DNA of 64,000 nucleotides from Planctomycetota bacterium. Lineage in GTDB: Bacteria > Planctomycetota > Planctomycetia > Pirellulales > PNKZ01. The translations under genes and the position numbers were made by a program. Shown here piece after piece: positions 7,138-48,102 of this stretch. Within the stretch, counting starts at the first letter, position 1, and every line of letters starts with the position of its first letter. The stretch spans positions 1-64,000 of the forward strand of contig JAFEBQ010000045.1 of assembly GCA_018242585.1 (NCBI GenBank). Reading direction: 5' to 3'. The notes under the pieces are model-generated. The model made no database searches. It saw nothing but the letters and a program-made list of their open reading frames with translations, and had not been told where the DNA came from.

Positions 7138-7491
7138 AATTTTTCCGACAACGTGCGCACAAGAGTGTTGCCAAATTCAGATCATCGGTTAAGATCACGC
7201 GCGCTGGGTGAATGAGAGACAAAAAACCTGGCGACTGCTGAAGAGAAAAGTTTTTCACTCCTCACGCCGCTGCGATCGTCCGCTCTGAATCACCAACCTC
7301 ATCAACGATCTCGCCCACTGCTCCACTCGATCAACTGCTAAGAGGGAACTTAGCCCGTCGCGAACCAACCGCGCGTCCGTCAAGGATGACGACGCCGGTT
7401 CGCGACGTAACGCGAGCGGTGGGCCGCGGCCGTCGGCCAGTGATCTTTCGCCGATAGCATTCCGTTTAGGATTCTCATTGCCGACTGGTGC
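7138..7491. other. Intergenic region left of the insertion sequence
   Basis: AT-richer than its surroundings just after the lipoprotein gene (AAATTTTT at 7138-7145). No gene, tRNA or clear terminator seen. Confidence 0.4.
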
Positions 7492-8993
7492 CACTGGTGG
7501 CTTGTCCCAATACTGACCGGGAATTTTTTTGGCCGTTTGGGGTTGCGCGATTCTTCGAGTTGGCGCAGACTACGCGTATGCGAAAGGGTGCGAAGCGTCC
7601 GGAGCCGTTGCCGATCTGGCCTGAAACCGTCCAGGGGGGTCGGCAGGTGCGTCTGCTGGAGCAGCACGTTCGTCAGTTGCGCAACCAGGCGGCGCACGGC
7701 AATCAGCAGTTGCTCCTGGACGATGTGGTGGTGGCTCATCTGCTGGCGTTTTTCAATCCCACGCTCCGTAGTTTACGGACGCTGGAAGACTTCAGCCAGA
7801 CGCGCCAAGCGCAGCGGCATTTGACCGTGCGGCGTCTGTGCAAGAGCACGCTGTCCGACTTTCATGCCCTGGTCGATCCGACGCTGCTGCAGCCGCTGAT
7901 TCAGCGTTTGCACGCGGCTGCCCAAGCCCAAGGAGGCCCGCGTCCCGCCGATCTGCCGGCCACGCTCGCCAAGGTGCTGGCGGTGGACGGGTCGTTTTTT
8001 GCCGTGGCCGCCGATGTGGCTTGGGCCATCAAGCAGCGGAGCGCCGGCAGCCGCCGTCACGCCGGAGTGCGGCTCGATCTGCATCTGGACATTGGCAACT
8101 GGCTGCCGGAAGTGATCGACGTCTGCGGCCAAGGGACCAGCGAAGCCGCGAGCGCCGCGCGCAGCATCCAGCCCGGCGCGATTCACGTCTACGACCGCGG
8201 GATTTTCAGCTTTGCGTTGCTCGCGGCGCAGGTGAAAGCCCAAGCCTTTTTCGTCCATCGCTTGCGCGAGGCGGGAGCCCGCAGCCCACGGTTCGTGGCC
8301 GAAACAACTCGCCCGCTGACGGCGGCAGAGCAAGCCCAGGGGATCGTCAGCGACCAGCCAGGCCGACTGGCCGGTTCGCCCCATCGTCCAGCTCCCGACA
8401 TCCCGCTCCGCGAAGTGGTGGTGCAAGGTGACGGGGGCGAAGTCGTGCGGCTGTTGACCAATCTGCTCGATGTCGAGGCCAGCGTGATTGCCACGATCTA
8501 TCGCTATCGCTGGCAGGTGGAGCTGTTCTTTCGTTGGCTCAAGGTGTTTGCCAACTTCAGCCACCTGATCAGCGAGCAGCGTTCAGGCATCCTGCTCAGC
8601 TTCTACGTGGCGGTGATCGGCGTGCTGCTGCTGGATCTGCACAGCGGTGCCAAGCCGAGCAAGTACGCCTTCAGCCTGCTGGGCATGGCTGCCCAGGGGG
8701 CCAGCCTGGCGGAAATCGCGCCGATCCTGGCGGAACGCGAACGGCGCGTCGCGCTCGATCGGGCGAGCCTGGCGCGGCGCAAGGCCCGCGCAAAAAATCA
8801 AGCGTAACCGAGCCGGGTTCGCGCAGGCGTGCGTGCCGGTGGTTGATGCTGCGCGGAAGGCGGCCACGGAGCGCCGCTCCTCGTCGCGCCGTCGCCAGCC
8901 ACGCGAGTGCGCGACGATTGCCAACACCCTCTGATACACTCGGCACTTGCACTCCAGCCAAATACCGGACACTATTGGGCTTGTCCACCAGTG
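7492..8993 (+). mobile_element. IS4-type insertion sequence, 1502 bp, intact ends
   Basis: The ends form 29-bp imperfect inverted repeats: 7492-7520 and 8965-8993 share CACTGGTGG, CCCAATA, TG and CCGG in order, with seven mismatches of 29. They enclose one transposase gene. No convincing target-site duplication is visible: GACTGGTGC precedes the left end and CGTAGCTCG follows the right end. Confidence 0.85.
7578..8807 (+). CDS. IS4-family DDE transposase
   Basis: A 409-residue transposase that appears complete. The DDE triad is visible as Asp137 (AVDGSFF), Asp206 (HVYDRGIF) and Glu315 in the YREK signature Y308-x2-R311-x3-E315-x6-K322, which is diagnostic for the IS4 group. The open frame extends left to 7488, outside the element, so ATG 7578 (MRKGAKRPEP) inside the inverted ends is preferred. 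It moves the element by cut-and-paste. No frameshift or stop is seen, so it may still be active. Confidence 0.9.
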   Translation: MRKGAKRPEPLPIWPETVQGGRQVRLLEQHVRQLRNQAAHGNQQLLLDDVVVAHLLAFFNPTLRSLRTLEDFSQTRQAQRHLTVRRLCKSTLSDFHALVDPTLLQPLIQRLHAAAQAQGGPRPADLPATLAKVLAVDGSFFAVAADVAWAIKQRSAGSRRHAGVRLDLHLDIGNWLPEVIDVCGQGTSEAASAARSIQPGAIHVYDRGIFSFALLAAQVKAQAFFVHRLREAGARSPRFVAETTRPLTAAEQAQGIVSDQPGRLAGSPHRPAPDIPLREVVVQGDGGEVVRLLTNLLDVEASVIATIYRYRWQVELFFRWLKVFANFSHLISEQRSGILLSFYVAVIGVLLLDLHSGAKPSKYAFSLLGMAAQGASLAEIAPILAERERRVALDRASLARRKARAKNQA

Positions 8994-9341
8994 CGTAGCT
9001 CGTGCGAGACTCGTAGGGTACGCACCCCGTGCGTACCAAGCATCTCGCTCAGCGCAAGCGCTAATCAAGGGATGGCCCGGCCGCTAGTCGGCCGGGTTGC
9101 GACAGCAACAAGAAGAACGCGCAACGTCGTCGGTGATTCTTCGCCACATGCTTGTTCTCGTCGCTAGCGCGATCCAGCCGACAAGCGGCTGGGCCACCCA
9201 TTGTTGTGTGCGCTTCGCGGGTTCATCGGTACGCACAGGGTGCGTACCCTACGGCTGAATCGCCAGCGTCTTGCCGTTTGCCCCCGCCGGACGGCTTGCG
9301 AATCGTGGCTGCGCAGCGTACGTTGAATTGATACAGCCTTC
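8994..9341. other. Intergenic region with nested palindromic elements
   Basis: No gene. Almost the whole stretch to 9255 is taken up by two nested pairs of hairpins, listed as repeats. Bases 9256-9341 should contain the promoter of the tRNA-Ser gene; I cannot name its boxes. Confidence 0.5.
9013..9252. repeat. Nested pair of hairpins, GTAGGGTACGCAC outer arms
   Basis: Outer hairpins GGTACGCAC-ccc-GTGCGTACC (9017-9037) and GGTACGCAC-agg-GTGCGTACC (9228-9248) share an identical stem and are flanked by GTAG on the left and CTAC on the right. Inside lie two further hairpins with different stems: CCCGGCCG-ctagt-CGGCCGGG (9076-9096) and CCAGCCG-acaag-CGGCTGG (9174-9192). They are flanked by GGATGGC and GCCACCC. 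Confidence 0.75.
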
Positions 9342-9423
9342 GGAGGGTAAGCGAATGGCTAGCGGCGACACTGGAAATGTCGTGCCGGGAAACCGGTTGC
9401 GGGTTCGACTCCCGTGCCCTCCG
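9342..9423 (+). tRNA. tRNA-Ser (anticodon GGA)
   Basis: An 82-nt cloverleaf. Acceptor GGAGGGT pairs with GCCCTCC, followed by discriminator G (9423) as usual for serine. The anticodon loop CTGGAAA gives anticodon GGA, reading UCC and UCU. The variable arm is long (TGCCGGGAAACCGGTTG region), a class II feature. The T-arm is GCGGG-TTCGACT-CCCGT. The 3' CCA is not encoded. A terminator follows. Confidence 0.95.
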
Positions 9424-9430
9424 CTCTTCT

Positions 9431-10333: not shown

Positions 10334-10400
10334 CAATCGGTCGCTAAATGAAAATGCCGCGCGCCCGCGACGGGTTGCGTCGCGGGCGCGCGGCGCTGGC

Positions 10401-15579: not shown

Positions 15580-15624
15580 AAGCCAACAAAAAGAGGCCGG
15601 AGGGAAATAAATCCCTCCGGCCTC
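15580..15624 (-). terminator. Rho-independent terminator of the RRM protein gene
   Basis: A 13-bp perfect stem GAGGCCGGAGGGA (15593-15605) / TCCCTCCGGCCTC (15612-15624) with loop AATAAA. On the minus strand it is followed by TTTTTGTTGG. It lies 60 bases past the stop of the RNA-binding protein gene. Confidence 0.85.
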
Positions 15625-38464: not shown

Positions 38465-38791
38465 AGCGTCACTCACTTCAGGGGGCACGCTAGCGCAATT
38501 CTCGCCGCGTTCTAGCGTCTCGGGTGGCACCGATGGCTCGGCCATCGGTGTTGCGCAGCAACAAGAAACTCGATGGGCACGCTCAACTCAAATAGAAACT
38601 CGCCACCCGTGTGGGACGGCGCTCGAGGTTTCTTGCGGCCTTCGGCCGCCCAGGTGCAAGCACCTGGGCCACCCATGCGACAGGGCCCTGAGAACTACGC
38701 TAGCGGATTCAAGTTGGCGCAGCCGCCGTCGGGCCGGACGATATAATTCGACGCCCTGATCGTTCCTCTCTTCTCGCAGGGAATCGTTGCT
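38465..38791. other. Intergenic region largely made of hairpin repeats
   Basis: No gene. The central part (38521-38676) is the paired hairpin element listed separately. The last 100 bases hold the upstream region of the PQQ-propeller gene, with AGGGAA at 38779-38784 as ribosome-binding site. Confidence 0.5.
38521..38676. repeat. Paired hairpin element with GGGTGGC/GCCACCC ends
   Basis: The left hairpin is CACCGATGGC-tcg-GCCATCGGTG (38528-38550), the right one CCCAGGTGC-aa-GCACCTGGG (38649-38668). The outer ends are GGGTGGC and GCCACCC. After the left hairpin comes TTGCGCAGCAACAAGAAACT, close to TTGCGACAGCAACAAGAA at 9097-9114. The two stems are unrelated in sequence but each is perfectly paired. 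Confidence 0.75.
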
Positions 38792-41112: not shown

Positions 41113-41611
41113 CGGCCAACGCGGAGCGTAAAAGCGAATCCAGTCCCGTAGTAGCCGATCGATGTCATCTGTGCAGCGATGCGTGTTGGTAACGAGACCA
41201 GGTTGACACTTTTCCGTAGCCCAGGCGTTTACGCCTGGGGCAAGCGCAGGAGTTCCCAGCATTTCAGCCCCGTTCTACGGGGCTTATCGGTGATCGCACC
41301 GTTGGGGTACGTGAAAGCCCGGTGAACCGGGCTACCGGCATATTTCGACTCAGCAATCCCAGGCGTTAACGCCTGGGCTACGAAAAAGAAGACTTACTTT
41401 CTGACATCGATCACTAGATCGACTACTACCAAAGTCTTGAGCGTGCGGCGCACCGCACGCTTTTCCCCGGGAAAAAGTTTCTCCCCCGCCCCAGCTTCGG
41501 TATCATGGAACGGTGCGTCCGCCGCCCCACCAAGGCCCGGTCGCTCCCGCCTGGCGCGCTCGACCCCTAGCGTGCCGACTTCCTGCCGAACATTGGTCCT
41601 GGAGAAGCGTC
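41113..41611. other. Intergenic region carrying a four-hairpin array
   Basis: No gene is seen. 41214-41381 is the hairpin array listed separately. The last 200 bases hold the upstream region of the next gene, with GGAGAA before GTG 41612. Confidence 0.5.
41214..41381. repeat. Array of four perfect hairpins between GTAGC and GCTAC ends
   Basis: Hairpins in order: CCCAGGCGT-tt-ACGCCTGGG (41220-41239), AGCCCCGT-tct-ACGGGGCT (41266-41284), AGCCCGGT-ga-ACCGGGCT (41316-41333), CCCAGGCGT-ta-ACGCCTGGG (41358-41377). The first and last have identical stems and are bounded by GTAGC on the left and GCTAC on the right, so the array as a whole is also a fold-back. Confidence 0.8.
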
Positions 41612-47832: not shown

Positions 47833-48102
47833 CCAAAACCGCCAAGAGACTTCTCCCACTGGGGTGGTCCAGGCAACTTGCTTGGGCGGCGCAGCCGCAG
47901 AGGGATCGGGGCCGCTACACAATCGGCCTCTTGTCGCTGACGACACCGACAACCAGTTGTCAGTGGTACCCGGACTGACCGAGTTGCTGGCATGACTCGT
48001 TGAGCGAATCCAGGGAGTGGCGATTTCGCAGGTGCGCCGCTGCATTGCTTGCCTGAATTGACTAGAATTGAGGTGTCGACCAGCGAACCGAGGATTCCCG
48101 TC
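47833..48102. other. Gap after the M50 gene, contains the second direct repeat
   Basis: No gene. The only structured items are the 20-bp direct repeat at 47977-47996 and a short palindrome GACAAC-cag-TTGTC at 47949-47962. AGGA at 48090-48093 serves the DUF433 gene. Confidence 0.45.
47977..47996. repeat. Direct repeat, right copy
   Basis: TGACCGAGTTGCTGGCATGA, one base different from the DUF1501 gene end at 46509-46528. Confidence 0.7.

Follow-up and report, generated by a model that had tools for sequence, protein, structure and literature searches.

The closest described counterparts of the locus analyzed here are the GTAG REPs and REPINs with their RAYT (TnpA-REP) transposases (PMC2817692, PMC3116915, PMC3733652, PMC6006769). 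Earlier publications cover REPs, REPINs, and RAYTs as well as heterodimers and subfamilies whose stems are alternative but complementary, and GTAG REPs have been reported in planctomycetes. The elements studied in this work resemble these systems in several respects. A GT[AG]G guide stands at the foot of each perfect hairpin, copies run into the hundreds and occur as closed inverted doublets, a RAYT gene has units of its own kind on its flanks, and subfamilies carry different stem letters that still complement each other. Unlike-ended dimers, which occur in several of the described families, are likewise shared. In contrast to the GTAG REPs, the unit of the inner family described below is formed by two successive hairpins with a conserved tail CAAGAR, its stems vary much more while the foot and tail are constant across genera, and short REPINs invariably have a different second hairpin at each end. 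In the open-access text of the literature, we found no description of the two-hairpin unit or of the rule of differing second hairpins, the double-palindromic TIR figure of PMC3733652 lying outside this comparison.

Two other systems are similar in part. TIRtrons, with the "double palindromic" TIRs of TIRYT genes (PMC3733652), also place a pair of neighboring palindromes on either side of a Y1 transposase gene, and in the TIRs of P. putida and P. fluorescens a degenerate GTAG-1 unit stands beside another stem-loop (PMC3733652). Here, however, the GTRG foot of the first hairpin is intact, and the hairpin pair is itself the dispersed repeat. Identity with TIRtrons was rejected, as neither the foot nor the tail that the units conserve contains the published TIR motif GGGGWSAS, and the units have the GTRG foot instead. 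Insertion sequences of the IS200/IS605 family (IS608, ISDra2) share with the present elements an HUH and tyrosine enzyme that reads subterminal hairpins in folded single-stranded form, as well as left and right ends that differ. Here, by contrast, the dispersed units lack a transposase, form inverted doublets, and carry a GTRG guide, and the scores of the enzymes exceed the REP cut-off but fall short of the IS200 one.

Against this background, we consider it highly probable that the locus comprises two nested non-autonomous RAYT-type REPINs, i.e., a two-hairpin GTRG REPIN (9070-9199) within a single-hairpin GTAG REPIN (9013-9252), that depend on a single-strand RAYT mechanism.

Structure of the locus

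The window is the first 64 kb (64,000 nucleotides) of contig C45 from a planctomycete-like genome of 5.57 Mb. The hairpin cluster is located between the ORF of an IS4-family transposase (7488-8807) and a tRNA-Ser gene (9342-9424). The following features were identified in the window:

9013..9037, plus strand: left outer REP, GTAG foot and 9 bp hairpin GGTACGCAC-CCC-GTGCGTACC (single-hairpin family 'E')
9070..9114, plus strand: left inner REP, foot GGATGG, hairpin 1 CCCGGCCG/CGGCCGGG, hairpin 2 TTGC/GCAA, tail CAAGAA
9097..9108, plus strand: second hairpin of the left inner REP, TTGC-GACA-GCAA
9155..9199, minus strand: right inner REP, inverted, foot GGGTGG, hairpin 1 CCAGCCG/CGGCTGG, hairpin 2 TCGC/GCGA, tail CGAGAA
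9161..9172, minus strand: second hairpin of the right inner REP, TCGC-GCTA-GCGA
9228..9252, minus strand: right outer REP, inverted, stem as in the left outer REP, loop CCT, GTAG foot outward
9070..9199, no strand: inner REPIN within the outer REPIN, 130 bp, feet outward, unlike ends
38522..38674, no strand: another two-hairpin REPIN, ends CACCGATGG/TTGC and CCCAGGTG/CGGC
47862..47971, no strand: third two-hairpin REPIN, diverged, R1 matches of 33.5 and 42.8 bits

All four perfect hairpins of the original prediction were found at 9013-9252, and the region contains two more, the second hairpins that follow the inner ones, making six. The outer hairpins (9017-9037 and 9228-9248), claimed to share one stem bounded by GTAG and CTAC, indeed both have the 9 bp stem listed above, with their GTAG feet facing outward. 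The first hairpins of the inner units, described as unlike yet perfectly paired, have stems of 8 bp (9076-9096) and 7 bp (9174-9192); the C that precedes CCAGCCG in the right unit faces an A and is unpaired. The sequence TTGCG...CAACAAGAA is present as described, but what had been taken for a spacer is the second hairpin together with the conserved tail. Both inner REPs match covariance model R1, the left one with 44.7 bits (E 2.9e-8 over 1.25 Mb) and the right one with 35.3 bits (E 8.1e-6). The arrangement is nested, as had been claimed, with one REPIN lying inside another.

Elsewhere in the window, a further GTAG doublet at 41216-41381, with stem CCCAGGCGT/ACGCCTGGG and outward feet, has no RAYT linked to it, and two very stable perfect hairpins of 17 and 13 bp (10356-10394 and 15593-15624, respectively) are possibly terminators.

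Two dispersed REP families

Further copies, on which the original prediction depended, are abundant for both families, which are dispersed and mostly intergenic. The outer unit GTAGGGTACGCA-N2-6-TGCGTACC has 27 exact copies in the 5.57 Mb genome against zero for the reversed-pattern control, and copies of GTAG-GGTACGCAC-NNN-GTGCGTACC mostly form closed pairs. Besides the pair in the window, 11 closed pairs of this family were found, each 70-78 bp long. The outer doublet of the window is 240 bp long because the second REPIN (9070-9199) sits inside it. A perfect hairpin of at least 8 bp immediately follows 216 per 10,000 GTAG sites, as compared to approximately 2-18 per 10,000 for unrelated tetranucleotides; tetranucleotides overlapping or lying within REP feet score higher than unrelated ones in the same test. 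A strict pattern demanding both feet (GTAG and CTAC) on one hairpin yielded no matches.

The inner unit of 45 bp is composed of a foot GGRTRG, a variable hairpin 1 (7-10 bp), a variable hairpin 2 (4-6 bp), and a tail CAAGAR. About 200 copies of two-hairpin units are present in the genome; exact-pattern counts are 107 for GGGTGGC..CAAGAA (control 4) and 95 for GGGTAGC..CAAGAG (control 3). The subfamilies differ by their stem letters, and both GTAG and GTGG feet are found. Closed pairs number 51 among 187 two-hairpin units of this genome. Rough ORF calls, which are crude as gene calls, are overlapped by 43 of 93 units, in comparison with 89% of random 45-mers. Foot tetranucleotide, copy number, and closed doublets place these repeats in the GTAG super-family, as does RAYT flanking for the two-hairpin family overall, though not for the exact subfamilies of the window.

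In relatives, the foot and tail pattern barely exceeded its reversed control in most genomes, and the covariance model was used instead. It detected 94 units within a 1.25 Mb sample of this genome, as well as units in 58 of 146 related genomes and in 38 of 88 genera. Model R1 was built from 19 rows, one of which (row 2 of A2) is not a natural sequence. Only natural sequences enter the evidence counts, while the covariation sets from this genome and from other genera were both collected with the model containing the non-natural row. At some RAYTs in other genera (L195-L198), the flanking units are 83-87 nt long, with first-hairpin stems exceeding 15 bp and with the foot, second hairpin, and tail unchanged.

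Nesting of REPINs

A second nest, a two-hairpin REPIN within another two-hairpin REPIN, is located at C13:1259-1560. Hence, insertion into REPIN spacers recurs. An outer-type pair at C28:30346-30721 (376 bp) was considered as another nest and ruled out, as the sequence that it encloses is unrelated and is not a REPIN. With the inner REPIN removed, the outer element in the window still measures 110 bp, above the 70-78 bp of its relatives; thus, the nest is not the product of one clean insertion into a standard outer copy.

The alternative that the outer-inner-inner-outer arrangement is one composite mobile element, rather than a nested insertion, seems unlikely, although several observations favor it. 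At three other sites (on C16, C5, and C3), 16-40 bp separate the outer unit from a REPIN of the inner family, which is above chance: the outer family occurs near the CCCAGCCG/CCGGCCG inner subfamily at 4 sites against about 0.2 expected, a rough and post hoc estimate. For two-hairpin units overall, proximity to other REP families is in mild excess (6 vs. 2.5 at random, with a maximum of 8 in 500 randomizations). Moreover, the window shares with C16:88282-88468, at 81% identity, a segment of 187 bp that takes in the inner REPIN, the spacer, and the right outer REP. On the other hand, no other site shows an inner REPIN with outer units on both flanks, outer-family doublets usually stand by themselves, and most inner-family REPINs also occur alone. 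Given the co-occurrence and the half of the nest shared with C16, the outer and inner elements may have spread together.

The sites at which the outer unit recurs next to an inner one (window 9013-9252, C16:88282-88468, C5:106516, and C3:134136-134375) possibly represent a composite in the making. A search for the empty site in 77 genomes from other genera returned, among the matches listed outside this genome, only the tRNA-Ser gene and one weak 45 bp match to an inner unit, and thus revealed no empty site; a transposition event or excision product was not observed either.

Covariation and mode of stem change

The original prediction proposed that stems differing in sequence while keeping their pairing reflect either selection on the structure rather than on the bases, or a process that generates each hairpin by copying, and suggested a check for covariation. 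This check was positive in this genome and across other genera. In the set from this genome, 98.5% of cells are paired, with a covariation score of 0.615 vs. 0.199 for shuffled and at most 0.105 for slid alignments; 99 distinct units from other genomes and genera likewise yield 98.5% of paired cells and a score of 0.613 vs. 0.166 for shuffled alignments. Covariance-model alignments are fitted to the model and therefore favor pairing. A separate count, for which 142 distinct units were anchored by foot and tail and only the boundary of hairpin 2 was picked by pairing, agrees with the model-based scores: 96.1% of pairs in stem 1 are Watson-Crick vs. 61% in shuffled data, and 98.1% vs. 71% in stem 2.

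The variability is not uniform along the unit. Nearly fixed pairs are found at positions 1 (C-G) and 5 (G-C) of stem 1 and at position 3 (G-C) of stem 2, position 4 of stem 2 also being nearly fixed, whereas all four Watson-Crick pairs (C-G, A-T, G-C, T-A) occur at position 4 of stem 1. The foot and tail are fixed across genera while the stems vary. The 60 stem changes within subfamilies (one double mismatch counted apart) comprise 43 one-sided and 17 compensated ones, and 15 of the latter are able to pass via a G-T wobble, suggesting stepwise change with decay rather than one-step copying.

Quasi-palindrome correction and strand switching at replication forks are known mutational processes, and perfect stems with unlike letters are their expected product. 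Nevertheless, it is quite improbable that one-step templated copying made these stems with no selection on structure. Firstly, the nearly fixed pairs stand beside varying neighbors, and the foot and tail do not change across genera. Secondly, one-sided changes persist and outnumber the compensated ones. Thirdly, templated correction would be indifferent to the G-T path, which nearly all compensated changes fit. Of the two proposals, selection for structure is thus favored and origin by copying disfavored. Both hairpins of the inner family remain paired as their letters change, as expected if a transposase reads the shape of the DNA over its sequence.

RAYT transposases

The genome contains ten Y1_Tnp genes. 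Three of them (L005, L006, and L007) are flanked by two-hairpin units, and three others by single-hairpin units, namely, GTAG-GGTGCAT at L009, GTAG-GTCAGGCC at L010, and GTAG-NNGCGGC at L008. Two inverted units, 650 bp apart, enclose the L006 gene (C19:30192-30841). Two of these proteins, L006 and L009, were tested against NCBIfam and matched NF047646 ("REP-associated tyrosine transposase") with 110.6 and 187 bits, above the cut-off of 80. Their identity as IS200/IS605 insertion sequences was rejected, since their scores for the IS200 family are 34.9 and 22.7 bits, under the cut-off of 55. The RAYT motifs PDHVH and YMHMNP, i.e., the HUH motif and the catalytic tyrosine, are conserved, and one of the two proteins matches the E. 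coli TnpA-REP structure 4er8.

In other genomes, two-hairpin units, each with its own paired stems, flank all 18 RAYTs of the L006 clade (43-63% identity to L006) and none of ten RAYTs that are 31-37% identical to L006. A repeat of this analysis in named records found flanking units at 6 of 6 RAYTs from the L006 clade vs. 1 of 74 more distant RAYTs. The guess that a RAYT-like transposase would be found is thereby borne out in this and other genomes. In this genome, no RAYT is flanked by units of the window subfamilies (CCCAGCCG/CCGGCCG and GTAG-GGTACGCAC), and hence we infer their cognate enzymes.

Outside planctomycetes, the Desulfarculales MAG UBA702 encodes a 43%-identical RAYT (L244) with flanking two-hairpin units (E 2e-5 to 3e-5), a case that may reflect transfer or a mis-binned contig. 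At L008 (C21:12824-16063, minus strand) and L049, a 1263-residue ORF that resembles a type I restriction HsdR-like helicase gene contains, in frame, a Y1/RAYT-type transposase together with many GTAG-NNGCGGC REPs, which encode repeats, e.g., DAASSRI.

The least probable alternative is that the hairpins are mainly RNA elements (terminators, stabilizers of mRNA 3' ends, or small RNAs) whose pairing is kept for a host function. In its favor, transcription of REPs is frequent and they can function at the RNA level (PMC3733652), and the composite as a whole adopts a single long fold (-78.7 kcal/mol with DNA parameters). Against it, no Rfam family is matched here at the gathering score, the weak matches to eukaryotic miRNA precursors reflecting the long inverted repeat; the units form amplified subfamilies and flank transposase genes; the letters of the foot and tail are conserved in the manner of a single-stranded guide; and the hairpins are not followed by a T-run.

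Proposed mechanism

For the two nested REPINs, we suggest the following scenario, by analogy with the biochemistry of TnpA-REP and IS200/IS605. In the single-stranded element, each unit would fold into its hairpins, and the RAYT would recognize the paired shape along with the GTRG guide at the foot of the hairpin and a small number of fixed bases. The enzyme would then cut both ends, and the doublet would re-insert elsewhere, mostly between genes. With such recognition, stem letters would be free to change so long as pairing is kept. Group-3 TnpA-REP requires GTAG and hardly cleaves when the stem contains a mismatch, yet it accepts most exchanges of stem bases (PMC8266576). The spacer of a REPIN may serve as dispensable DNA where a second REPIN can land, which would account for nesting.

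Several hundred stem variants with a fixed foot and tail, from dozens of planctomycete genera, represent a natural mutagenesis of single-strand reading by a transposase. These variants could tell which pairs are contacted by the transposase, i.e., the fixed ones, and which need only to pair, i.e., the variable ones.

Unlike ends of short REPINs

In this genome, none of the 50 short closed REPINs has the same stem-2 position 2 at both ends, whereas random re-pairing of ends gives a mean of 16.2 and a minimum of 6 in 5000 trials. In other genera, none of 15 short REPINs share stem 2 between their ends and 4 share stem 1. Altogether, equal second hairpins at both ends were observed in 0 of 65 short REPINs from at least eleven genomes. 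The graph of partners contains a triangle, in which each of TTGC, TCGC, and CGGC is a partner of both others; hence, there is no fixed code of left and right ends. With identical ends, end-to-end pairing would have a mean energy of -70 kcal/mol, whereas the ends as they are give -31.6 and the local hairpins -25.7 kcal/mol.

Unlike ends could prevent a single long hairpin from forming between the two ends of a short REPIN and thus spare the local hairpins. We tentatively suggest, as a possibility that we hold to be somewhat less than even, that the ends of short REPINs are under pressure to differ, the second hairpin being a fast-evolving tag of difference that blocks end-to-end pairing or marks the identity of the end for the enzyme. 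The rule bears on an open question in the literature, namely, why REP dimers are so often heterodimers, which has no obvious explanation according to PMC3733652, and it can be tested by swaps of second hairpins.

The rule is not absolute, as RAYT-bearing elements may have equal second hairpins: among pairs with a transposase gene between the ends, identical second hairpins were found in 4 of 9 (P = 1e-4, post hoc and with units that are not independent).
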